Below the pieces are notes generated by a model. That model saw nothing but the letters and a program-made list of their open reading frames with translations. It was not told the DNA's origin and ran no database searches. Positions 5,909 to 45,201 of a stretch of 64,000 nucleotides of DNA are shown here, in pieces. The stretch's first letter is position 1. Every line of letters starts with the position of its first letter. The stretch is from Rhodoferax sp. WC2427 (lineage in GTDB: Bacteria; Pseudomonadota; Gammaproteobacteria; Burkholderiales; Burkholderiaceae_C). The stretch spans positions 4,216,001 through 4,280,000 of the forward strand of contig NZ_CP162006.1 of assembly GCF_040822085.1 (NCBI RefSeq). Direction: 5' to 3'. The position numbers were made by a program, and so were the translations under genes.

Positions 5909-5947
5909 GGTGGCAGCAGCGCAGCAGCAGGTTGAGATACCGAGGGA

Positions 5948-6658
5948 TCAGTCGCCGAACATTTTCTGTTTCAGCTCACGGCGCTGCTGGGCTTCCAGCG
6001 ACAGCGTGGCCGTGGGGCGGGCCAGCAAGCGGCCCACGCCGATGGGTTCGCCGGTTTCGTCGCAGTAACCATAGTCGCCCGCGTCGATGCGGTTGATGGA
6101 TTGCTCGATCTTCTTGAGCAGCTTGCGTTCGCGGTCACGGGTGCGCAGCTCCAGGGCGTGCTCTTCTTCGATGGTGGCACGGTCGGCCGGATCGGGCACG
6201 ACCACGGTGTCTTCGCGCAGATGCTCGGTGGTTTCACCGGCATTGTTGAGCATGTCCTGCTTGAGCACCGTGAGCTTGAGGCGGAAGAAAGCAGTCTGCT
6301 TTTCGTTCATGTACTCGGAGTCGGGCATGGCCAGGACTTCGGCATCGGTCAACTGGTCGGCCGGGGTGGTCTTCCAGTTGTTCGCCAGCTTGGGGTCTTT
6401 CTTGGCGGCCACGTGGGGCGGCGGCGCAATCATCGGCTCAGGCGCGCTCTGCATGTAGCTGGACTTGGCCGCGGTGGACGCGACTGCAGGCGCCATGGAT
6501 GGCACCGTCAGCTGCGCCAGGCGCGACGAAGGACGCACGCTCTTGGCCGGAATCGACGTGTAGCGGGGACTGGTCTGCGCCGCCGCGGGGGCTTCGGTAG
6601 CAGCCGCCACGGGGGCGGGGGTGGGCTTGGGCGCTGTGGTCACTTTGGTAGTACTCAT
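5948..6658 (-). CDS. dksA: DksA-family RNA polymerase regulator with degenerate zinc site and long N-terminal extension
   Basis: 236 residues; the DksA core is about residues 100-236 and ends MFGD. The coiled-coil tip (VPDPADRATIEEEHALELRTRD) is present. The canonical zinc finger C-x2-C-x17-C-x2-C is reduced to C199-x2-T202-x17-S220-x2-A223, leaving one cysteine. This matches the zinc-independent type known from Pseudomonas DksA2. The first ~95 residues are an Ala/Pro/Thr-rich tail absent from E. coli DksA. DksA binds the RNA polymerase secondary channel and with ppGpp controls rRNA and amino acid promoters. The upstream gene is a COG0523 metal GTPase. Confidence 0.92.
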   Translation of the reverse strand: MSTTKVTTAPKPTPAPVAAATEAPAAAQTSPRYTSIPAKSVRPSSRLAQLTVPSMAPAVASTAAKSSYMQSAPEPMIAPPPHVAAKKDPKLANNWKTTPADQLTDAEVLAMPDSEYMNEKQTAFFRLKLTVLKQDMLNNAGETTEHLREDTVVVPDPADRATIEEEHALELRTRDRERKLLKKIEQSINRIDAGDYGYCDETGEPIGVGRLLARPTATLSLEAQQRRELKQKMFGD

Positions 6659-6711
6659 GGTTGGCGCGGGGCTTTAGCGTCCCGCAATCTGCATCATTTT
6701 GGTTCTGTGTG

Positions 6712-7779
6712 TCACACCAAACACTGTTCCATGCCTTGCAAAAAGATGTCCTTGGGCAATTCGATCCCGATAAACACCATTTTGCTGCCGCGCTTTTCGC
6801 CTGCAGCCCATTCCGGGCCCAGGTCGCTGCCCATCAGCTGGTGTACGCCCTGGAAAATGACTTTACGCTCGGTACCCTGCATATTCAAGACACCTTTGTA
6901 GCGCAACATGCGCGGGCCGTAAATATTGACGATGGCGCTCAGGAAGTCTTCCAGCTTGGCCGGGTCGAAGGGCCGGTCGGACTTGAAGACAAAGCTCTGC
7001 ACGTCGTCGTCATGGTGGTGGTGGTGCCCACCGCCATGCCCATCCTCAGCGCCATGGTCATGGCTGTGCGAGGGGTGGTCGCAGTGTTCGCCCTCGGCAT
7101 GGTCATGGCCGGCGTGGTCGTCTTCTTTCAGGAAGTCGGGGTCGATGTCGAGCTTGGCGTTCAGGTTGAAGCCGCGCAGGTCGAACACCTCGCTCAGGGC
7201 CACTTCGCCGAAATGCACGGCTTTTTGCGGCGCACGCGGGTTCATGTGCTTGAGGCGGTGGATGAGCGCATCGACTTCGGCGGGCTCCACCAGGTCGGTC
7301 TTGCTGATGAAGATCTGGTCGGCAAAACCCACCTGGCGGCGGGCTTCCTGGCGTTCGTTGAGCTGGGTGGCGGCGTGCTTGGCATCCACCAGGGTCAGGA
7401 TCGAGTCCAGCAGGTAGCTTTCGGCAATCTCATCGTCCATGAAAAAGGTCTGCGCCACCGGGCCGGGGTCGGCCAGGCCGGTGGTTTCAATGACCACACG
7501 GTCAAAGTCCAGCAGGCCCTTGCGTTTTTTGGCAGCCAGCAGGCTCAGGGTGGCGCGCAGGTCTTCGCGGATGGAGCAGCAGATGCAGCCGTTGTTGAGC
7601 TGGATGATCTGCTCGCCGGGCTCGGACACCAGGATTTCGTTGTCGATATTCTCTTCGCCAAATTCATTCTCGATGACGGCGATCTTCTGGCCGTGGGCTT
7701 CGGTCAGCACGCGCTTGAGCAGCGTGGTTTTGCCTGAGCCCAGAAAGCCGGTCAGGATGGTGGCGGGAATGAGTGCCAT
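6712..7779 (-). CDS. CobW/COG0523-family metal-binding GTPase
   Basis: 355 residues from the ATG at 7779 (another ATG lies at 7791). P-loop GFLGSGKTT (11-19), the family metal motif CICC at 65-68, and a His-rich loop at about 215-270 with runs such as GGGHHHHHDDD and GHDHAEGEHCDH. These GTPases act as metallochaperones or insertases for Zn or Co. The C-terminal CobW_C domain follows (LEDFLSAIVNIYGPRMLRYKG). Neighbour dksA encodes a zinc-site-degenerate protein, which points to zinc homeostasis, but I see no clear Zur box in the 100 bases upstream. Confidence 0.9.
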   Translation of the reverse strand: MALIPATILTGFLGSGKTTLLKRVLTEAHGQKIAVIENEFGEENIDNEILVSEPGEQIIQLNNGCICCSIREDLRATLSLLAAKKRKGLLDFDRVVIETTGLADPGPVAQTFFMDDEIAESYLLDSILTLVDAKHAATQLNERQEARRQVGFADQIFISKTDLVEPAEVDALIHRLKHMNPRAPQKAVHFGEVALSEVFDLRGFNLNAKLDIDPDFLKEDDHAGHDHAEGEHCDHPSHSHDHGAEDGHGGGHHHHHDDDVQSFVFKSDRPFDPAKLEDFLSAIVNIYGPRMLRYKGVLNMQGTERKVIFQGVHQLMGSDLGPEWAAGEKRGSKMVFIGIELPKDIFLQGMEQCLV

Positions 7780-36209: not shown

Positions 36210-36977
36210 ATGCCCGCAAAACGCACTTCTCCTCCGGCCTCCGCCGCCTCCACGCCACCCATGGTGCGCTACCAGCACATCAAGGACTTTGTGGCGGGCA
36301 AGATCCAGGACGGCACCTGGACCCCCGGTGACCGCCTGCCGTCCGAGAACGACCTGGTGCTGCAGTTCGGCATGTCGCGCATGACCGTCAACCGCGCGCT
36401 GCGCGAGCTGCAGGAGCAGGGCCGCATCCGCCGCGTGGCCGGTGTCGGCAGCTTCGTGGCCGACGACAAGCCCCAGGCCAACCTGCTGCAGATCGCCCGC
36501 CTGGCCGACGATATCCGCCGCCGCGGCCACGACTACCAGTGCCAGATGGTCACCATTGAGCGCATCGCGGCCACGCTGGAAGTGGCCGCCGCACTGGGCC
36601 TGCACACCGGTGAATCGGTGTTCCACACGGTGTGTGTGCACCTGGAAGACGGCGTTGCCATGCAGCTCGAAGACCGCTTCGTCAACCCGCGCATGGCCCC
36701 CGAATTTGGCAACCAGGATTTCAGCCAGGAGCAGCCGTCCGACTACCTGGTGCGCACCGTGCTGTTCGACCAGATGGAGCATGTGGTGGATGCCGTGCTG
36801 CCCAGCGCCGAGCAGGCCGCCCTGCTGCAAATGGATGCCCACCAGCCCTGCCTGCTGCTGACGCGCCGCACCTGGATGCGCGACGTCCCCATCACCCTGG
36901 TGCGCTGCCTGCACCCCGGCGCACGCTACCGCCTGGGCAGCCGCTTCCGCACCGACGGCAACGCGGTGACCAGCTAA
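36210..36977 (+). CDS. hutC: Histidine utilization repressor HutC (GntR family)
   Basis: 255 residues. GntR winged helix (about 18-85; GDRLPSENDLVLQFGMSRMT and VNRALRELQEQG) and a UTRA ligand domain (about 100-245) that binds urocanate in the family. Represses the hut genes until urocanate accumulates. It precedes hutU in the same direction and is separated from it by a terminator-like palindrome and an operator. Confidence 0.95.
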   Translation: MPAKRTSPPASAASTPPMVRYQHIKDFVAGKIQDGTWTPGDRLPSENDLVLQFGMSRMTVNRALRELQEQGRIRRVAGVGSFVADDKPQANLLQIARLADDIRRRGHDYQCQMVTIERIAATLEVAAALGLHTGESVFHTVCVHLEDGVAMQLEDRFVNPRMAPEFGNQDFSQEQPSDYLVRTVLFDQMEHVVDAVLPSAEQAALLQMDAHQPCLLLTRRTWMRDVPITLVRCLHPGARYRLGSRFRTDGNAVTS

Positions 36978-37088: not shown

Positions 37089-38789
37089 ATGACCACCACC
37101 CTGCAAGACCCCCGCTTCGATGCCAGCCGCGTCATCCGCGCCCCGCGTGGCAGCACCTTGACCTGCAAAAACTGGATTGCCGAGGCGGCCTACCGCATGC
37201 TGCAAAACAACCTCGATGCCGAGGTGGCCGAGGACCCAAAAAACCTGGTGGTCTACGGCGGTATTGGCCGCGCCGCCCGCAACTGGGCCTGCTTCGACCA
37301 GATCCTGGCCTCGCTCAAAGAGCTCAACGAAGACGAGACCCTGCTGATCCAGTCCGGCAAGCCGGTCGGCGTGTTCAAAACCCATGCCAACGCCCCGCGC
37401 GTGCTGATCGCCAACTCCAACCTGGTGCCCCAGTGGGCCAACTGGGAGCACTTCCACGAGCTGGACCGCAAAGGCCTGTTCATGTACGGCCAGATGACGG
37501 CGGGTAGCTGGATCTACATCGGCAGCCAGGGCATCGTGCAGGGCACGTTTGAGACCTTTGTCGAAGCGGGCAAGCAACACTACAACAACGACTGGGCGGG
37601 TAAATGGATTTTGACCGCGGGCCTGGGCGGCATGGGCGGCGCGCAGCCCCTGGCCGCCACGCTGGCCGGGGCCGTGTCGCTGAACATCGAATGCCAGCAA
37701 AGCAGCATTGACTTCCGCCTGCGCACCCGCTACGTGGACAAGCAGGCCCGCGACATCGACCATGCGCTCGAACTCATCGCGCAGCATTGCGACGCCAAGG
37801 AAGCCGTGTCCATCGCCCTGCTGGGCAATGCCGCCGAGGTGCTGCCCGAGCTGGTGCGCCGCGCCAAGGCAGGCAGCATCCGCCCCGATCTGGTGACCGA
37901 CCAAACCTCGGCCCACGACCTGGTCAACGGCTACCTGCCCGCAGGCTGGAGCGTGGCCGACTGGAAGGCCGCGCAAAAAGACCCGGCGCAGCACGCCGCC
38001 TTGACCGCCGCCGCTGCCCAGAGCTGCGCCGTGCACGTGCAGGCCATGCTGGACTTCCAGGCCCTGGGCATCCCCACGGTGGACTACGGCAACAACATCC
38101 GCCAGGTGGCGTTTGACACCGGCGTGAAAAACGCCTTCGACTTCCCCGGCTTTGTGCCCGCCTACATCCGCCCCATGTTCTGCGAGGGCAAGGGGCCGTT
38201 CCGCTGGGTGGCCTTGTCGGGCGACCCGGAGGACATCTTCAAGACCGATGCCAAGATCAAGGAACTGTTCCCCGACAACCACCACACCCACCGCTGGCTG
38301 GACATGGCCCGCGAGCGCATCGCCTTCCAGGGCCTGCCCGCCCGCATCTGCTGGCTGGGCCTGGGTGAGCGCCACATCGCCGGGCTGGCCTTCAACGAGA
38401 TGGTGAAAAACGGCGAACTCAAAGCCCCCATCGTGATTGGCCGCGACCACCTGGACACCGGCTCCGTGGCCAGCCCCAACCGCGAAACCGAAAGCATGCT
38501 GGACGGTACCGATGCCGTCAGCGACTGGCCACTGCTCAACGCCCTGCTCAACACCGCGGGCGGCGCCAGCTGGGTCAGCCTGCACCACGGCGGCGGGGTG
38601 GGCATGGGCTACTCGCAGCACTCGGGCATGGTCATCGTGGCCGACGGCACCGATGCCGCCGCCGAGCGCCTGGCCCGTGTGCTGGTCAACGACAGCGGCA
38701 GCGGCGTGATGCGCCACGCCGATGCAGGCTACGAGATTGCCATCGCCACGGCCAAGAAGCAGGGTTTGAACCTGCCGATGGTGAAATAG
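37089..38789 (+). CDS. hutU: Urocanate hydratase
   Basis: 566 residues, the family length. Converts urocanate to imidazolonepropionate using tightly bound NAD+. Visible blocks: [77 protein letters not shown]. Start ATG at 37089. First structural gene of the operon hutU-H-D-I-F-G. Confidence 0.98.
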
Positions 38790-38790
38790 G

Positions 38791-38852
38791 CGTTTGCTAT
38801 TTTTTAGATAGCTGCTCTCGCCCATTCCATAAGCGCTAGCGGCCTGTTTGGC
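38791..38852 (-). repeat. Dispersed two-hairpin repeat, copy 7, between hutU and hutH
   Basis: Plus strand TTTGCTATTTTTTAGATAGC then TGCTCTCGCCCATTCCATAA and GCGCTAGCGGCC. The AT-rich stem (GCTATTTTTTAGATAGC) and the GCGCT stem are both clear. It lies within the presumed hut transcript. Confidence 0.85.
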
Positions 38853-38858
38853 TTAAAA

Positions 38859-40445
38859 ATGTCACCTACCCACCCTCACCCCAACCCTCTCCCGCCAGCG
38901 GGAGAGGGGGCAACACCCCTGCCTTCCTCCCTCTCCCCAGCGGGGGAGAGGGTCGGGGTGAGGGTGGGCGACACCCCCCTCACACACCGCGACCTGGTGG
39001 CCGTGGCCCGCGATGGCGCGCGGCTGGAGATCTCCGAAGCCGCCTGGGCGCGCATCGCCAACGCCCAGGCCATCGTGCAGCGCATCGTGGCCAGCGGCGA
39101 GCGGGCCTACGGCATCAGCACCGGGCTGGGGGCCTTGAGCAATGTGCTGCTGCACGGCGATCAGTTAGCCCAGCTGTCGCGCAACACGCTGCTCAGCCAC
39201 GCCTGCGGGGTCGGCCCGCTGCTGTCCGAGGCGCAAACCCGCGCCATCCTGGTGGCGGCGCTGGCCAACTTCTGCCAGGGCTATTCGGGCCTGCAACCCA
39301 AGGTGGTCGAAGGGCTGCAAGCGCTGCTGAACCTGCACATCACCCCCTGCGTGCCCTCGCAGGGTTCGGTGGGCTACCTCACCCACATGGCCCACATCAG
39401 CGTGGCGCTGCTGGGCGTGGGCGATGTGCGCTGGCAAGGCCGCACCCTGCCAGCATCGGAAGCCTTGGCCGCCAACGGCCTGCAGCCGCTGGTGCTGGGC
39501 GCGAAGGACGGCCTGTGCCTGGTCAACGGCACGCCCTGCATGACCGGCCTGGCCGCGCTGGCCCTGGCCGATATCGAACGCCTGGCAGACTGGGCCGACG
39601 TGACCGGGGCCATGGGTTTTGAAGCCCTGAAGGGGCAAATCGCCGCGTTCGATGCCGACATCCTGGCCCTCAAACCGCACCCCGGCATGCAGGTGGTGGG
39701 CCAGCGCCTGCGCAGCCTGCTGGCGGGCAGCGAGGTGATCGCCAGCAGCTACGGGCTCCGCACGCAAGACGCGCTGAGCCTGCGCTCCATGCCGCAGATC
39801 CACGGTGCCTGCCGCGACCAGATCGCCCACGCCGCGCGGCAGATCGAGACCGAGCTGAACTCCGCCACCGACAACCCGCTGCTGCTGGGCACGCCCGAGG
39901 CCTACCGCGTCATGTCCCAAGCCAACCCGCACGGCGAATCGGTGGCCATGGCTTGCGACCTGCTGCGCATTGCCGCGGCCGAGCTGGGCGGCGTGGCCGA
40001 GCGGCGGCTGGACCGGCTGGTGAACCCGGTGCTCAGCGGCCTGCCCGCGTTTCTGGTGGCCGAGCCGGGCGTGAACTCGGGCCTGATGATTGCGCAGTAC
40101 ACCGCCGCCTCGCTGGTCGGCGAAAACCGCCGCCTGGCCCAGCCGGTGGTGGTGGACAACTTTGTCACCTCCGGCGGGCAGGAAGACCACCTCAGCCTGG
40201 GCACCACCGCCGCGCTGGAGCTGCACCGGTCGCTGGAGAACCTCACGCAGATTCTGGCTATCGAGTACCTGCTGGCCGCCCAGGCGCTGGAGTTCTTGAA
40301 AGAGCAGCGCTTCGGCGAAGGCACGGGCCGGGCGTGGCAGTGGCTGCGCCAGCACGTGCCGCCGTTCGATGCCGACCGCTTCTTAGCCCCCGACATCGCC
40401 CAAGCCGCCAACCTGCTGCGCACCCCTTTTTCCTTGCGCCCATGA
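38859..40445 (+). CDS. hutH: HAL/PAL-family ammonia-lyase (hutH position) lacking the MIO Ala-Ser-Gly triad
   Basis: 528 residues from the ATG at 38859 (GTG codons further in are alternatives). The fold matches histidine ammonia-lyase: YGISTGLGALSN, HMAHISVALLG, LNSATDNPLL, TSGGQEDHLSLG and FLKEQRFGEG. The active-site loop, normally GSVGASGDLAPLAH, reads GSVGYLTHMAH (169-179), three residues shorter and without Ala-Ser-Gly, so the usual electrophilic MIO cofactor could not form there. Residues 4-38 are encoded by a repeat element. It should deaminate histidine to urocanate in this operon, but activity is uncertain; a known divergent subfamily is possible. Confidence 0.85.
   Translation: MSPTHPHPNPLPPAGEGATPLPSSLSPAGERVGVRVGDTPLTHRDLVAVARDGARLEISEAAWARIANAQAIVQRIVASGERAYGISTGLGALSNVLLHGDQLAQLSRNTLLSHACGVGPLLSEAQTRAILVAALANFCQGYSGLQPKVVEGLQALLNLHITPCVPSQGSVGYLTHMAHISVALLGVGDVRWQGRTLPASEALAANGLQPLVLGAKDGLCLVNGTPCMTGLAALALADIERLADWADVTGAMGFEALKGQIAAFDADILALKPHPGMQVVGQRLRSLLAGSEVIASSYGLRTQDALSLRSMPQIHGACRDQIAHAARQIETELNSATDNPLLLGTPEAYRVMSQANPHGESVAMACDLLRIAAAELGGVAERRLDRLVNPVLSGLPAFLVAEPGVNSGLMIAQYTAASLVGENRRLAQPVVVDNFVTSGGQEDHLSLGTTAALELHRSLENLTQILAIEYLLAAQALEFLKEQRFGEGTGRAWQWLRQHVPPFDADRFLAPDIAQAANLLRTPFSLRP
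38869..38968. repeat. 100-bp inverted repeat forming the N-terminus of HutH
   Basis: The outer arms CCCACCCTCACCCCAACCCT and the complement ending GGTGAGGGTGGG enclose two smaller hairpins (CTCTCCCGCCAGCGGGAGAG and CTCTCCCCAGCGGGGGAGAG). This is a widespread proteobacterial dispersed element, often translated as HPHPNPLPPAGEG. Confidence 0.8.
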
Positions 40446-41002
40446 TCCACCCCTTCAACACCGCCGCCCTGCCCGCCACACCGTGGAAGAACGGTGGCGG
40501 CACCACGCGCGAGATCGTCTGCCAACCCGTCGGCGCGGGCATGGACAGTTTTGACTGGCGGGTGAGCATTGCCACCATCGCCGCCGCCGGGCCGTTCTCG
40601 GCCTTTCCCGGTGTGGACCGGGTCATCCTGCTGCTGGACGGCGCGGGGGTGCACCTGCAAGGCGGCGGCATCGACCACCGGCTGGACACGCCCGGCGTGC
40701 CGTTTGCGTTCCCGGGCGACGTGGCGCTGGGCTGCCAGTTGCTGGGCGGCGCATCGACCGACTTCAACGTGATGGTCCGGCGCGGGCGGGTGCAGGCCGA
40801 GGTGCGGGTGCTCACCACCGCCGAAGACATTTCCGCCGACTGCGGCCTGCTGCTGGCCATGCGCGGTGCATGGCAACTGGGCGATTTCCCATGTGCCCCC
40901 GGCCACGGGTTGTGGTGGGATGCGCCCATGCAATTCGCCGCCACACCGCAGACCGCCGATGCGCTGCTGGTTGCAGTCCATTTAAGAAAAATCGGGCTCT
41001 AG
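40442..41002 (+). CDS. hutD: HutD family protein
   Basis: 186 residues, a bicupin fold protein. N-terminal TPWKNGGGTTREIVCQP and FDWRVSIATIAAAGPFSAFPG are the family signature. HutD is conserved in hut operons and thought to set an upper limit on hut activity. The start ATG overlaps the hutH stop (ATGA). The stop TAG and the last codons (KIGL) run into a dispersed repeat. Confidence 0.9.
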   Translation: MIHPFNTAALPATPWKNGGGTTREIVCQPVGAGMDSFDWRVSIATIAAAGPFSAFPGVDRVILLLDGAGVHLQGGGIDHRLDTPGVPFAFPGDVALGCQLLGGASTDFNVMVRRGRVQAEVRVLTTAEDISADCGLLLAMRGAWQLGDFPCAPGHGLWWDAPMQFAATPQTADALLVAVHLRKIGL

Positions 41003-41049: not shown

Positions 41050-42276
41050 ATGCAACACCTTCCCTCTGCCGACGGCATCTGGCACAACCTGCGGCTGCTT
41101 GGCGACGCCACAGTCAATGCCCTGGCGGTGCAGGGCAGCCAGATCGCATGGATGGGCGACATCGCCTCCCTGCCCGCCTCCCTGCAAGCCCTGCCCCGCA
41201 CCGATGCCCACAACGCGCTGGCCATGCCGGGCCTGGTGGACTGCCACACCCACCTGGTCTACGGCGGCCAGCGGGCGAACGAATTTGCCATGCGGCTGGC
41301 GGGCGCGAGCTACGAAGAGGTGGCCAAGGCGGGCGGCGGCATCGTCTCCAGCGTGCTGGCCACCCGCGCCGCCAGCGAAGACGATCTATACGCCCAGTCG
41401 GCCACCCGGCTGCAGCAGCTGCTGGCCGAGGGCGTGTGCGCCATCGAGATCAAATCCGGCTACGGCCTGGCGCTGGAACACGAGCGCAAACAGCTGCGCG
41501 TGGCCCGCCGCCTGGGCGATGACTTTGGCGTCACCGTGCGCACCACCTTCCTGGGCGCGCACGCCCTGCCACCCGAGTACGCGGGCCGCAGCCACGACTA
41601 CATCAACCTCGTTTGCAATGAAATGCTGCCCGCACTGGCCGCCGAGGGGCTGGTGGACGCGGTGGACGTGTTCTGCGAACGCATCGGCTTCTCGCTGGCC
41701 GAGACCGAGCAGGTGTTCCAGGCCGCGCAGGCGCTGGGGCTGCCGGTGAAGCTGCATGCGGAGCAGCTCTCGGACATGGGCGGTTCGGCCCTGGCGGCGC
41801 GGTACGGCGCTTTATCCAACGACCACATCGAGCACCTGTCTGCCGCCGGTATCGAGGCCATGCGCGCATCTGGCACGGTGGCGGTGCTGCTGCCCGGCGC
41901 GTACTACACGCTGCGCGACACCCATGTGCCGCCGATTGCCGCCCTGCGCGCCGCCGGTGTGCCCATGGCCGTATCCACCGACCACAACCCCGGCACCTCG
42001 CCCTGCCTGAGCCTGCTGCTGATGGCCAACATGGCCAGCACCCTGTTCCGCCTGACCGTGCCCGAGGCGCTGGCCGGCATCACCACCCACGCCGCCCGTG
42101 CGTTGGGCCTGCAAGACACGCACGGTGTGCTGGCCGTGGGACGGCCTGCCAACATCGTCCTGTGGGATGTGCAAGACCCCGCCGAGCTGGTCTACTGGCT
42201 GGCCCACCAAACGCCCCGCACCGTGATCCGGCAAGGGCGGGTGGCGGTGGACACCCTGGGGCTGCTGCGGCCATGA
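41050..42276 (+). CDS. hutI: Imidazolonepropionase
   Basis: 408 residues. Amidohydrolase-fold enzyme opening the imidazolone ring to N-formimino-glutamate. Metal-binding [10 protein letters not shown], then [30 protein letters not shown] and [10 protein letters not shown] with the final Asp. Start ATG 41050. Downstream the operon is interrupted by about 745 bases of repeat DNA before hutF. Confidence 0.97.
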
Positions 42277-42291
42277 CGGGTGTAGCCAATG

Positions 42292-42365
42292 AGGGTCAGA
42301 TCCCCATTGCGCGCCGGAGTTTTTCGGAGCAGGAGCAGTGCTTCGCGCATTTGGGCTCTGACCCT
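42292..42365. repeat. 74-bp imperfect inverted repeat with GGGTCAGA ends
   Basis: Left arm AGGGTCAGATCCCCATTGCG, right arm complementary to AGGGTCAGAGCCCAAATGCG. REP-like appearance; in many Burkholderiales such GGGTCAGA palindromes are scattered between genes. Confidence 0.6.
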
Positions 42366-42407
42366 TGTTGGCGGATTGGCGTAGACGGCGATCCCTGGCC
42401 GGGATGT

Positions 42408-42983
42408 GCGCCCGGCGGCGCAGTAACTTTCTTTTGCTTGGCCAAAAGAAAGTCACCAAAGAAAAGGCCACCCCCACTGCCAGCGCCCTCCGCTGGCGCT
42501 ACGGGAACCTGCGGTGCTCGCTTTGGGCGGGGTCTGGCTAAACTCGCTGCGCTCAAACAGACGCCAGTCCTGATCCGCCCAAAGCTGCGCTCCTCGGCGC
42601 TGGCAGAGGGGGACCCCGGATGCGGGATCGGCGGCGCACCGCGCCGCATCGCGCCTAGGGCGCGAAACAGCAGCGGTGCGCCCGTCGCGATCCATTCGGA
42701 TGTAACCACCCTCAACACGGCCCCCTTCTCGCGCCCTAGGCGCGATGCCCTGCTGCGCCGGGCCGATCCCGCTCCCTGGGGTCCCCATCTGCAGGCGCCG
42801 AGGAGCGCAGTGGAATGCGGATCAGGGCTGGCGTTGTTTGAGCGCAGCGAGTTTAGCCAGACCCCGCATTCCACGAGCACCGCAGGTTCCCGTAGCGCTA
42901 GCGAAGGGCGCTGGCAGTGGGGGCGCCTTTCTTTTGGTGACTTTTCTTTTGCGCAAAAGAAAAGTTACTGCGCCGCCGGGCGC
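42408..42983. repeat. 576-bp inverted repeat with nested stems (MITE-like)
   Basis: Arms of about 255 bases, highly similar, meet around 42667-42728. Both outer ends read GCGCCCGGCGGCGCAGTAAC on their own strand. Each arm holds its own hairpin: left CTTTGGGCGG (42521) with CCGCCCAAAG (42575); right TGGAATGCGG (42811) with CCGCATTCCA (42864). Further pairs include CTGCCAGCGCC (42477) with GGCGCTGGCAG (42596). No transposase gene. Confidence 0.85.
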
Positions 42984-43021
42984 ATCACCCGGCCGACCAC
43001 GCCCGTAAACAAGCCAGCCCC

Positions 43022-44398
43022 ATGACAAGCCTTTACGCAAAAAACGCCCTCCTCCCCACAGGCTGGGCCACCAACGTCCTCCTCGAATGGAACGCCATCG
43101 GAGAGTTAACAGCAGTCACCCCCGACACAGAACCCGGCAGCGCCCCCCAAGCCGCAGGCCCCCTAACCCCAGGCCTGCCCAACCTCCACTCCCACGCCTT
43201 CCAACGCGCCATGGCCGGACTCACCGAATTCCGGGGCGCCGCCCAAGACAGCTTCTGGAGCTGGCGCACGCTGATGTACCAGTTCGCCGCCCGCCTCTCC
43301 CCCGAGCAGGTAGAAGCAATAGCCACCTGGCTCTACATCGAAATGCTGGAAGCAGGCTATACGTCGGTCTGCGAATTTCACTACCTGCACAACAGCGCCG
43401 ACGGCACGCCCTACGCCGATGACGCGGAGCTGTCCAAGGCCCTCGTGCGCGCGGCAAAAACAGCAGGCATCGCCATCACCCTGCTGCCCGTGCTGTACCA
43501 AACCAGCGGCTTCGGCGGCACACCGCCCACCACCGGCCAGCGCCGGTTCATCCGCTCGACCGACTCCATGCTGCGCCTGCTGGAAACGCTCAAACCCCTG
43601 TGCGATGCACAAGGCGCACGGCTGGGCCTGGCCCCGCATTCCCTGCGCGCCGTGCCGCCCGACAGCCTGCGCGACGCGGTGGCCGGACTGCACGCCATGG
43701 ACCCATCCGCCCCGGTGCACATCCATATCGCCGAGCAGACCGCCGAGGTGGAGGCCTGCCTGGCCTGGAGCGGCCAGCGCCCGGTGGACTGGCTGCTGGA
43801 CCACGCGCCGGTCGATGCACGCTGGTGCCTGATCCACGCCACCCACATGAGCGATGCCGAATACCAGCGCGCGGCGGCCAGCGGGGCGGTGGCGGGCATC
43901 TGCCCCAGCACCGAGGCCAATCTGGGCGACGGCCTGTTCGACATGCCGCGCTGGCGCAATGCAGGTGGCGCCTGGGGCCTGGGCTCCGACAGCCACGCCT
44001 GCGTCAATGCCGCTGAGGAGCTGATGCTGCTCGAATACGGCCAGCGCCTGCAGTTCCGCCAGCGCAATGTGCTGGCCAGCGCAGACCACAGCCAGGTCGC
44101 TACCGCCACCCTGCTGCAGGCGGTGGCCGGGGGCGCGCAGGCCTCGGGCCGGGCGGCCAACGGCCTGGCAGTCGGCCAGCGCGCCGACTTCTGCGTGCTC
44201 GACGCGCAGCACCTGGCGCTGGCCGGGTTGGCCGCCCCCGACATGCTCTCGGCCCACGTTTTCGCCAGCCACCGCACATCCGCGCTGGAGGCCGTCTGGG
44301 TCGGCGGCCAGCAACGCACCCGGCAAGGCCGCCACCCGTTGCACGATGCCGCCGCCGCTGCCTTCCTCCAAGCCCGCACGCAACTCACCCAAGGGTAA
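43022..44398 (+). CDS. hutF: Formimidoylglutamate deiminase
   Basis: 458 residues. Amidohydrolase family; converts N-formimino-L-glutamate to N-formylglutamate and ammonia. LPNLHSHAFQRAMAGL (metal HxH), EFHYLHNSADG, IHIAEQTAEVEACL, LIHATHMSD and GLGSDSHACVNAAEEL. With hutG it defines the five-step branch of histidine breakdown. Preceded by the inverted-repeat region, so it may need its own promoter or read-through. Confidence 0.96.
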   Translation: MTSLYAKNALLPTGWATNVLLEWNAIGELTAVTPDTEPGSAPQAAGPLTPGLPNLHSHAFQRAMAGLTEFRGAAQDSFWSWRTLMYQFAARLSPEQVEAIATWLYIEMLEAGYTSVCEFHYLHNSADGTPYADDAELSKALVRAAKTAGIAITLLPVLYQTSGFGGTPPTTGQRRFIRSTDSMLRLLETLKPLCDAQGARLGLAPHSLRAVPPDSLRDAVAGLHAMDPSAPVHIHIAEQTAEVEACLAWSGQRPVDWLLDHAPVDARWCLIHATHMSDAEYQRAAASGAVAGICPSTEANLGDGLFDMPRWRNAGGAWGLGSDSHACVNAAEELMLLEYGQRLQFRQRNVLASADHSQVATATLLQAVAGGAQASGRAANGLAVGQRADFCVLDAQHLALAGLAAPDMLSAHVFASHRTSALEAVWVGGQQRTRQGRHPLHDAAAAAFLQARTQLTQG

Positions 44399-44400
44399 AT

Positions 44401-45201
44401 ATGCAAGCCTTCAAGTTCATCCAAGGCACCCAGCCGCTGCTGGTCTCCATGCCCCATGTCGGCACCTACCTGCCGCCCGCGCTGGCCGCGCGCCTGACGC
44501 CCACCGCCCGGCAGGTGCACGACACCGACTGGCACCTGGAGCGCCTGTATGGCTTTGCCCAGGAGCTCGGCGCATCGGTGCTCATCGCCACCCATTCGCG
44601 CTACGTGATCGACCTGAACCGCGACCCTTCCGGGGCCAGCCTCTACCCCGGCCAGAGCGTCACCGGCCTGTGCCCGGTGGACGACTTCGACAACCAGCCC
44701 CTCTACCAGGACCCCGCCGACCTGCCCACCACCGCCGAGATCGCCCTGCGCCGCGACACCCTGTGGCAGCCCTACCACCAGCAACTGCACGCCGAGCTGG
44801 CCCGCATCCAGGCGGTCCACGGCAAAGCGGTTTTGTGGGACGCGCACTCCATCCGCTCGGTGGTGCCGCGCTTTTTCGAAGGCAAACTGCCAGATTTGAA
44901 TTTAGGCAGCGGCAACGGCACAAGCTGCGACCCCGCGATGTCCGCTGCGTTGCTGGCCATCGCCCAGAGTGCCCCCGGCTACACCGCCGTGCTCAATGGC
45001 CGTTTCCAGGGCGGCTACATCACCCGCCACTACGGCCAGCCCGCGCAGAACATCCACGCCATCCAGCTGGAGATGACCCAAAGCAGCTACATGCAAGAAG
45101 CCATGCCCTTCGACTACCTGCCCGAGGTGGCGGCGGGTATCCAGCCGCATCTACGGCGGATGGTGGAGGCGGCGTTGCGGTTTGGGGTCAACCGCCATTG
45201 A
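44401..45201 (+). CDS. hutG: N-formylglutamate deformylase
   Basis: 266 residues. Hydrolyses N-formylglutamate to glutamate and formate. SMPHVGTYLPP, DTDWHLERLYGFA, YVIDLNRDPSG, WDAHSIRSVVPRFFEG and GGYITRHYGQP are family blocks. Starts two bases after the hutF stop; last gene of the operon. Confidence 0.96.
   Translation: MQAFKFIQGTQPLLVSMPHVGTYLPPALAARLTPTARQVHDTDWHLERLYGFAQELGASVLIATHSRYVIDLNRDPSGASLYPGQSVTGLCPVDDFDNQPLYQDPADLPTTAEIALRRDTLWQPYHQQLHAELARIQAVHGKAVLWDAHSIRSVVPRFFEGKLPDLNLGSGNGTSCDPAMSAALLAIAQSAPGYTAVLNGRFQGGYITRHYGQPAQNIHAIQLEMTQSSYMQEAMPFDYLPEVAAGIQPHLRRMVEAALRFGVNRH

Follow-up and report, generated by a model that had tools for sequence, protein, structure and literature searches.

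Histidine ammonia-lyase (HAL, HutH) needs the electrophilic MIO cofactor because ammonia is a poor leaving group. What, then, do proteins do that are labelled "histidine ammonia-lyase" and are unable to form that enzyme's defining cofactor? The question is raised by a gene in a 64,000-nt stretch of Rhodoferax sp. WC2427 DNA (contig NZ_CP162006.1, positions 4,216,001 to 4,280,000), here called the window. A first-pass annotation had proposed that the protein uses a different electrophile, has another activity, or coexists with a second hutH elsewhere in the cell. Another activity is the best supported of these options, the prediction being that of a hercynine lyase. We consider it fairly probable, if far from assured, that the protein and its close relatives (HutH1) are MIO-independent hercynine trimethylamine-lyases yielding urocanate; we infer the substrate, the chemistry and the part played by a tyrosine.

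The MIO site and the active centre of HutH1

The gene in question (hutH1; positions 38859 to 40445, + strand) encodes a member of the aromatic amino acid lyase family recognized by TIGR01225 and, at full length, by PF00221 (551 bits). In the frame of this ORF, positions 39363 to 39395 (+) read G169 S170 V171 G172 Y173 L174 T175 H176 M177 A178 H179, bearing out the initial observations that the Ala-Ser-Gly triad is absent and that the motif is three residues shorter than GSVGASGDLAPLAH. Alignments with the Pseudomonas putida histidase (1gkj) and ergothionase (6s7j) as reference chains leave HAL sites 143 to 145 gapped and place a tyrosine (Tyr173) at site 142; equivalently, Ala-Ser-Gly is deleted and Asp145 is changed to Tyr. 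The same three-residue deletion occurs in each of the best 120 of 5857 matches (71 to 92% identical), a set that speaks for the near family only and whose named organisms are Rhodoferax, Polaromonas, Hydrogenophaga, Pseudomonas and relatives. GSVGYLTHMAH is found in 118 of these 120 proteins, and the other two (GSVGYLSHMAH and GSVGYLTHMAP) carry one change each outside the deletion. The deletion is also present at all 80 loci from named genomes, including a Rhodoferax MAG (locus L013). Such conservation argues against chance and assembly error alike, and thus excludes the 9-base assembly deletion that had been named as a possible source of the motif, as well as a frameshift. A pseudogene was rejected because the frame is open and the catalytic residues are conserved. 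Having both the GSVGYLTHMAH motif and the identity above 70% by which HutH1 is delimited, the window protein is, as judged from its sequence, a member of a conserved, mislabelled MIO-less subfamily.

HutH1 resembles HutH of P. putida (1gkj series) in fold, in most active-site residues and in operon context, and differs from it in lacking Ala-Ser-Gly/MIO, Tyr280 and Phe329. The alignments identify as kept Tyr84 (HAL Tyr53; 39108 to 39110), His114 (His83; 39198 to 39200), Asn223 (Asn195; 39525 to 39527), Arg309 (Arg283; 39783 to 39785) and Glu442 (Glu414; 40182 to 40184), all on the + strand; the roles of these numbered positions are presumed from the histidase literature. Tyr280 is replaced by Leu306 (39774 to 39776, +) and Phe329 by Pro. 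Throughout the best 120 of 5857 matches, Tyr53, His83, Asn195, Gln277 and Arg283 are invariant, as are Tyr at 142, the deletion of 143 to 145, Leu at 280 and Pro at 329; Glu414 is present in 119, with one gap. In a set of 53 aligned rows, Leu280 occurs in all 35 MIO-less rows, PDB 6s7j included. The 18 MIO rows have Tyr in 17 cases and Phe in one (1gkj, which we take to be a mutant chain), never Leu. The MIO-less rows fall into five groups: HutH1 beta/gamma, HutH1 alpha/Burkholderia, a Klebsiella clade, ergothionase-like proteins, and others.

The window protein scores 541.6 bits against the NCBIfam hutH equivalog TIGR01225 (cut-off 539.15), an excess of about 2.5 bits, and relatives fall below this cut-off (L104, 462; L106, 459; Klebsiella, 501). 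Its best PDB match is 7tqr, a probable HAL. An AlphaFold2 model made from a 22-row alignment has a mean pLDDT of 72.6, with values below 50 at residues 83-96, 287-309 and 437-440, segments that hold or adjoin active-site residues.

The hut operon of the window and the canonical hutH

The gene order in the window is hutC-hutU-hutH1-hutD-hutI-hutF-hutG, all on the + strand. Upstream of hutH1 lie hutC (36210 to 36977), for the GntR-type histidine-utilization repressor (TIGR02018, 295 bits, cut-off 220), and hutU (37089 to 38789), for urocanate hydratase (TIGR01228, 938 bits, cut-off 375). A thiourocanate hydratase was considered for HutU and rejected, the score with NF058530 being only 663.5 bits for a cut-off of 930. 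A hutD-like gene (40442 to 41002), recognized from its reading frame and from tblastn matches in related hut clusters, some of them annotated HutD, overlaps the end of hutH1 (ATGA). It is followed by hutI (41050 to 42276; imidazolonepropionase; TIGR01224, 452 bits, cut-off 298), hutF (43022 to 44398; formimidoylglutamate deiminase; TIGR02022, 588 bits, cut-off 413) and hutG (44401 to 45201; N-formylglutamate deformylase; TIGR02017, 361 bits, cut-off 279). The gap between hutI and hutF contains an element of about 720 bases (42290 to 43010) with internal inverted halves, copies of which occur across the genome; BLAST gave 45 matches at 71 to 100% identity, counting the element itself, both strands and half-units (e.g., C1:2983260, 250863, 2729692 and 450268).

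The longest hutH1 ORF begins at ATG 38859 and homologues align from about GTG 38958/38964; the ATG is probably the wrong start and a GTG near 38958-38964 the likelier one. The segment from hutU to this probable start (38790 to 38957, +), delimited from the sequence and by comparison with L013, contains the greater part of two inverted copies of a 21-base repeat, CCCTCACCCC(A/G)ACCCTCTCCC, at 38873-38893 (+) and 38944-38964 (-). The 5' leader of the listed ORF overlies this pair.

The operon had been described as intact. This is true of the genes from hutC through hutG, all of which are present, but not of the four-gene ABC transporter found in the sister locus L013, whose HutH1 is 94% identical. 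In L013, genes for a binding protein, two permeases and an ATPase lie, in this order, between hutU and hutH1, and a gene for a cytosine-type permease precedes hutU. The window has only about 170 bases, with the inverted repeat pair, where L013 has the transporter genes, so that hutU rather than the ABC transporter genes typical of the subfamily lies directly upstream of hutH1. A search of the bacterium's own genome (one contig of 4,778,649 bases) found no dedicated transporter: the best match to the L013 binding protein is only 33% identical. Eight OpuAC matches, three of them strong, lie elsewhere in this genome. Since both the linked transporter and a close binding protein are missing, the substrate of the window protein would be imported by another carrier, or else the module would be decaying. 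The window and L013, belonging to the same genus and differing by the four-gene transporter and the permease, constitute a natural test of hutH1 without its carrier. No match to the EgtD family (PF10017) was found in the bacterium's own genome, the 14 control genomes for this search having been chosen without regard to EgtD.

No other hutH is present in the window, as had been stated, and the conjecture of a second hutH elsewhere in the cell turned out to be true. The genome has two PF00221 genes, hutH1 and a canonical hutH with GSVGASGDLAPLAH (G000:C1:3063631-3065010); the latter lies 1.2 Mb from hutH1, apart from the hut operon of the window, and adjoins a hutC-like gene. The notion of a cell without any other histidase was discarded on finding this copy. 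A canonical MIO motif was likewise recovered for all 80 genomic HutH1 loci, within the locus in 49 cases and by genome search in 31. These loci represent at most 78 genomes, since three are contigs of a single Pseudomonas costantinii strain. The genome search, made for the GSVGASGDL motif in DNA, covered 38 genomes (the 31, six of the 49 and the window's own) and was positive in every one. A profile also detects a gene in the canonical range (394 to 422 bits) in 30 of the 31 genomes whose locus did not show the motif; the exception is Polaromonas P2-4 (G722), where the gene bearing the motif is broken into several pieces and contains an in-frame TGA, and another match, of 310 bits, lies elsewhere. 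Among 200 genomes of the window's own family, 102 have some profile match and two, both of the window's genus, score as MIO-less (1007 and 1003 bits; next best, 436). The second of these (G188) is the genome of L013 (G719), as indicated by the identical place and score. Another genome of the genus (G309) has a canonical-range match only.

These data bear on the possibility that HutH1 is still a histidase, working with a different electrophile (e.g., Tyr) or with none. Histidine itself is a main alternative substrate because the HutXWV transporter found beside many hutH1 genes is reported, in extracts of PMC8871633, to take part in histidine uptake, a report that counts against hercynine. The hut operon context of 64 of 84 loci (see below), the 39% identity between HutH1 and the canonical copy of the same genome, and the score slightly above the hutH cut-off point the same way. 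However, each of the 80 genomic HutH1 loci has a canonical MIO motif to go with it, though one in pieces in Polaromonas P2-4, and Tyr280 and Phe329 are lost along with the triad; we regard a histidase as quite unlikely. A different electrophile finds no support here, because MIO is missing in several lineages of the fold and because ergothionase, the only relative without MIO to have been characterized, works on a trimethylammonium substrate, releasing trimethylamine (extracts of PMC13405746).

Neighbours of hutH1 in other bacteria

The context of hutH1 was read in 84 loci (80 genomic and 4 plasmid) by tblastn with reference proteins, not by gene calling. At 81 of them the reference match lying closest upstream is an ABC ATPase in the orientation of hutH1, and 32 to 192 bases separate the matched ends. 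The ATPase is HutV of HutXWV in 72 loci and of the family-3 type in nine (L013-L017, L089, L103, L104 and L105). The remaining three have a contig edge (L039), a cytosine-type permease after a family-3 transporter (L061), or hutF (L106, from Aureimonas) upstream of the lyase; in L106 an OpuAC transporter stands at the far end of the cluster. HutXWV accompanies HutH1 in most Pseudomonas, and the family-3 type does so in Burkholderiales, Rhizobium, Erwinia and two Pseudomonas loci. Two proteins, P0048 (785 aa) and P0069 (726 aa), are each listed with both a lyase and an ABC ATPase domain (PF00221 and PF00005), suggestive of a fusion of the neighbouring genes.

HutX is an OpuAC protein (PF04069, 209 bits), and HutV passes the betaine/proline/choline ATPase model (367.5 bits, cut-off 326.6). 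Trp residues of HutX align with three Trp of ProX, which we take to form the ProX betaine cage. In all, two of the three kinds of import system seen beside HutH1-type lyases are of the betaine type. The family-3 binding protein (Erwinia copy) best matches octopine- and nopaline-binding proteins, at 214 and 207 bits. Because of this opine-like character, other N-alpha-substituted histidines form a further main alternative: HutH1 might act on an opine-like or N-alkyl histidine and release the substituted amine together with urocanate, a product that the hut context would still favour. The binding protein fits such compounds as well as it fits a betaine. Nevertheless, the lyase is accompanied by OpuAC transporters of the betaine type in the Klebsiella and Aureimonas clusters and at most Pseudomonas loci, and MIO should assist the departure of a secondary amine just as it assists that of ammonia. 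This alternative appears unlikely, if less so than a histidase.

HutH1 genes do not all sit in hut operons. At 64 of the 84 loci hutU, hutI, hutF or hutG is in view; at the other 20 (17 with hutXWV and three of the family-3 type, one of which, L105, has hutC) none is. The 17, all from Pseudomonas, show hutXWV-hutH1 by itself, as expected of a self-contained import-and-convert module; at one P. putida locus of this composition a LysR regulator gene lies beside the module. On a Klebsiella plasmid the order is hutG-hutI-permease-hutU, then OpuAC transporter-lyase, hutD, hutC and hutF, and no canonical hutH is annotated in the plasmid stretch 74000-93486. The Aureimonas cluster is similar, with an OpuAC transporter paired with an MIO-less lyase and an ordinary urocanate hydratase. 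HutU of the window, the Klebsiella plasmid and Aureimonas are all ordinary urocanate hydratases, scoring 938 to 1017 bits with TIGR01228 and 664 to 694 bits with the thiourocanate model (cut-off 930).

The canonical hutH motif that accompanies each of the 80 loci in its genome, and the frequent adjacency of hutH1 and canonical hutH in Pseudomonas, would also suit a HutH1 that has no catalytic activity or a regulatory function and acts as a partner of the canonical enzyme. Conservation of the catalytic residues, loci with a transporter but no other hut enzyme gene in view, and plasmid gene sets without a canonical hutH annotated beside the lyase all speak against such a role, which we hold to be the least probable of those considered. 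In P. aeruginosa, we take PA5093 to be the HutH1 gene. Extracts of PMC12772324 report that deletion of hutH (PA5098) in this species makes it defective on histidine, and label PA5093 hutG. In P. fluorescens SBW25, hutTu-hutXWV-hutH1 forms an insertion whose order, as given in extracts of the review PMC8871633, is matched by one gene order in 31 of the 84 loci; in those 31, GSVGYLTHMAH is in the first hutH and the MIO motif in the second. Compared with SBW25 HutH1 as that review describes it, the copy in the window no longer has a transporter linked to it. According to the same extracts, Pseudomonas can grow on histidine without hutH1.

Hercynine as candidate substrate and other MIO-less lyases

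The genes for urocanate hydratase and for HutC, a repressor that responds to urocanate, are frequent neighbours of hutH1. This association, the kept catalytic residues, Leu280, the dispensability for growth on histidine and the mostly betaine-type import together suggest hercynine as the natural compound that fits. The substrate would be a histidine with a good leaving group on the alpha nitrogen, most likely hercynine (N-alpha-trimethyl-histidine, or histidine betaine), imported in most relatives by the dedicated ABC transporter encoded just upstream. The deleted loop and the Tyr280-to-Leu change might give room for the trimethylammonium group. A base, the Tyr53 equivalent assisted by Glu414 and Arg283, would take the beta proton and trimethylamine would depart directly, for which reason the electrophilic MIO would not be needed. 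Urocanate would then be handed to HutU-HutI-HutF-HutG. In its broader form the proposal is that of a second entrance to the hut pathway, in which a dedicated transporter brings in histidine betaine and MIO-independent HutH1 splits it into trimethylamine and urocanate. Pseudomonas, Burkholderiales, rhizobia and Erwinia would possess this route, a related clade being present in Klebsiella and many other bacteria; the genes are plasmid-borne in several of these and carry the annotation histidase. We would give the proposal an even chance. A hercynine-lyase role, if true, would explain why Pseudomonas hutH1 is dispensable on histidine, provide a degradation route for hercynine, an ergothioneine precursor, and a further bacterial source of trimethylamine, and imply that the histidase fold can dispense with MIO if a good leaving group is supplied by the substrate itself.

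Several observations count against a hercynine lyase. The genome of the window has neither a linked transporter nor an EgtD-family gene, HutH1 differs from ergothionase at positions 142-145 and 195, and the Klebsiella clade is without Asn195. Furthermore, an OpuAC protein alone does not mean hercynine, since one OpuAC-type protein, specific for ergothioneine, has an affinity for hercynine about 10,000-fold lower than for that compound (extracts of PMC9732360).

Ergothionase of Treponema denticola (6s7j/6s7q) and HutH1 share the fold family, the absence of MIO, Leu280 and the kept Tyr53, His83, Arg283 and Glu414. In ergothionase MIO is absent by another route: the protein is one residue shorter, keeps Asp145 and has Ser at 195. 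HutH1 might nonetheless be an ergothionase, converting ergothioneine to thiourocanate and trimethylamine; the lack of MIO and Leu280 shared with 6s7j would agree with this, as would the ergothioneine carried by an OpuAC-type transporter of other bacteria (PMC9732360, extracts). Yet the three HutU proteins scored above are ordinary urocanate hydratases, and at four of five loci with thiourocanate hydratase the MIO-less lyase is a different one, 24 to 27% identical to HutH1 and apart from it in the tree. We deem an ergothionase very unlikely. The five loci come from the 398 genomes of a phylum sample; none of 150 Burkholderiales genomes has a thiourocanate hydratase over the cut-off. Three of the four ergothionase-like proteins were used in the alignment and tree; one was tested against the PDB and best matched 6s7j (165 bits). 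Their genes lie near thiourocanate hydratase, unlike hutH1, and the closest kin of HutH1 is not ergothionase. In the open-licence literature, as represented by extracts, we found neither a hercynine lyase nor the chemistry of HutH1 described, and no statement that HutH1 lacks MIO. MIO-less lyases (ergothionase) and hutH1 as a gene are already known; of the suggestion that the variant is a documented subfamily with known chemistry, only the gene is thus borne out.

A quick tree of 53 rows sets the ergothionase-like rows apart from HutH1 and HAL with support of 100, and places 6s7j outside the HAL plus HutH1 branch, also at 100; HutH1 and the Klebsiella clade are grouped with only 81. MIO proteins fall on one side of a branch with support of 94, so that a single MIO change is enough on this unrooted tree, which leaves out PAL/TAL and has several very long branches.

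A plasmid search yielded relatives from Erwinia (71% identical), from Rhizobium (GSAGYLVHNAH), Burkholderia (YLTHMAH), Aureimonas and Sinorhizobium RAC02 (YLTHAAA) at about 50%, and from Klebsiella (YLIATAH) at 43%. The best 120 of 7988 matches to the Klebsiella lyase come from Enterobacterales, Rhizobium, Pseudomonas gingeri, Burkholderia, Rathayibacter, Acetobacter and others. Among these 120, Tyr142 and the deletion occur in all 117 that cover the site, Leu280 in 120 and Tyr53 in 116 (one Phe, three gaps), and position 195 is Ser in 102, Gly in 15, Val in one and a gap in two. Loci L110/L137 (Klebsiella michiganensis plasmid NZ_CP056137.1) combine urocanate-to-glutamate genes, a betaine-type transporter, an MIO-less lyase and IS elements. 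The query matched 896 plasmid records, 226 of them from Klebsiella; these include other genes, as matches at 41% look different. In Sinorhizobium meliloti pSymA (CP140942.1; L107, 6794-8434), an MIO-less relative (GSVGQADMTLLSH) with a hydrophobic N-terminus is encoded in the vicinity of an ABC transporter and of a gene that bears the annotation dimethylsulfoniopropionate lyase. Finally, L108 (6986-8509) and L109 (about 5932-7464) encode family members with GSIGAAD replacing GSVGASGD, and one of these two lyase genes adjoins an ornithine cyclodeaminase-family gene.
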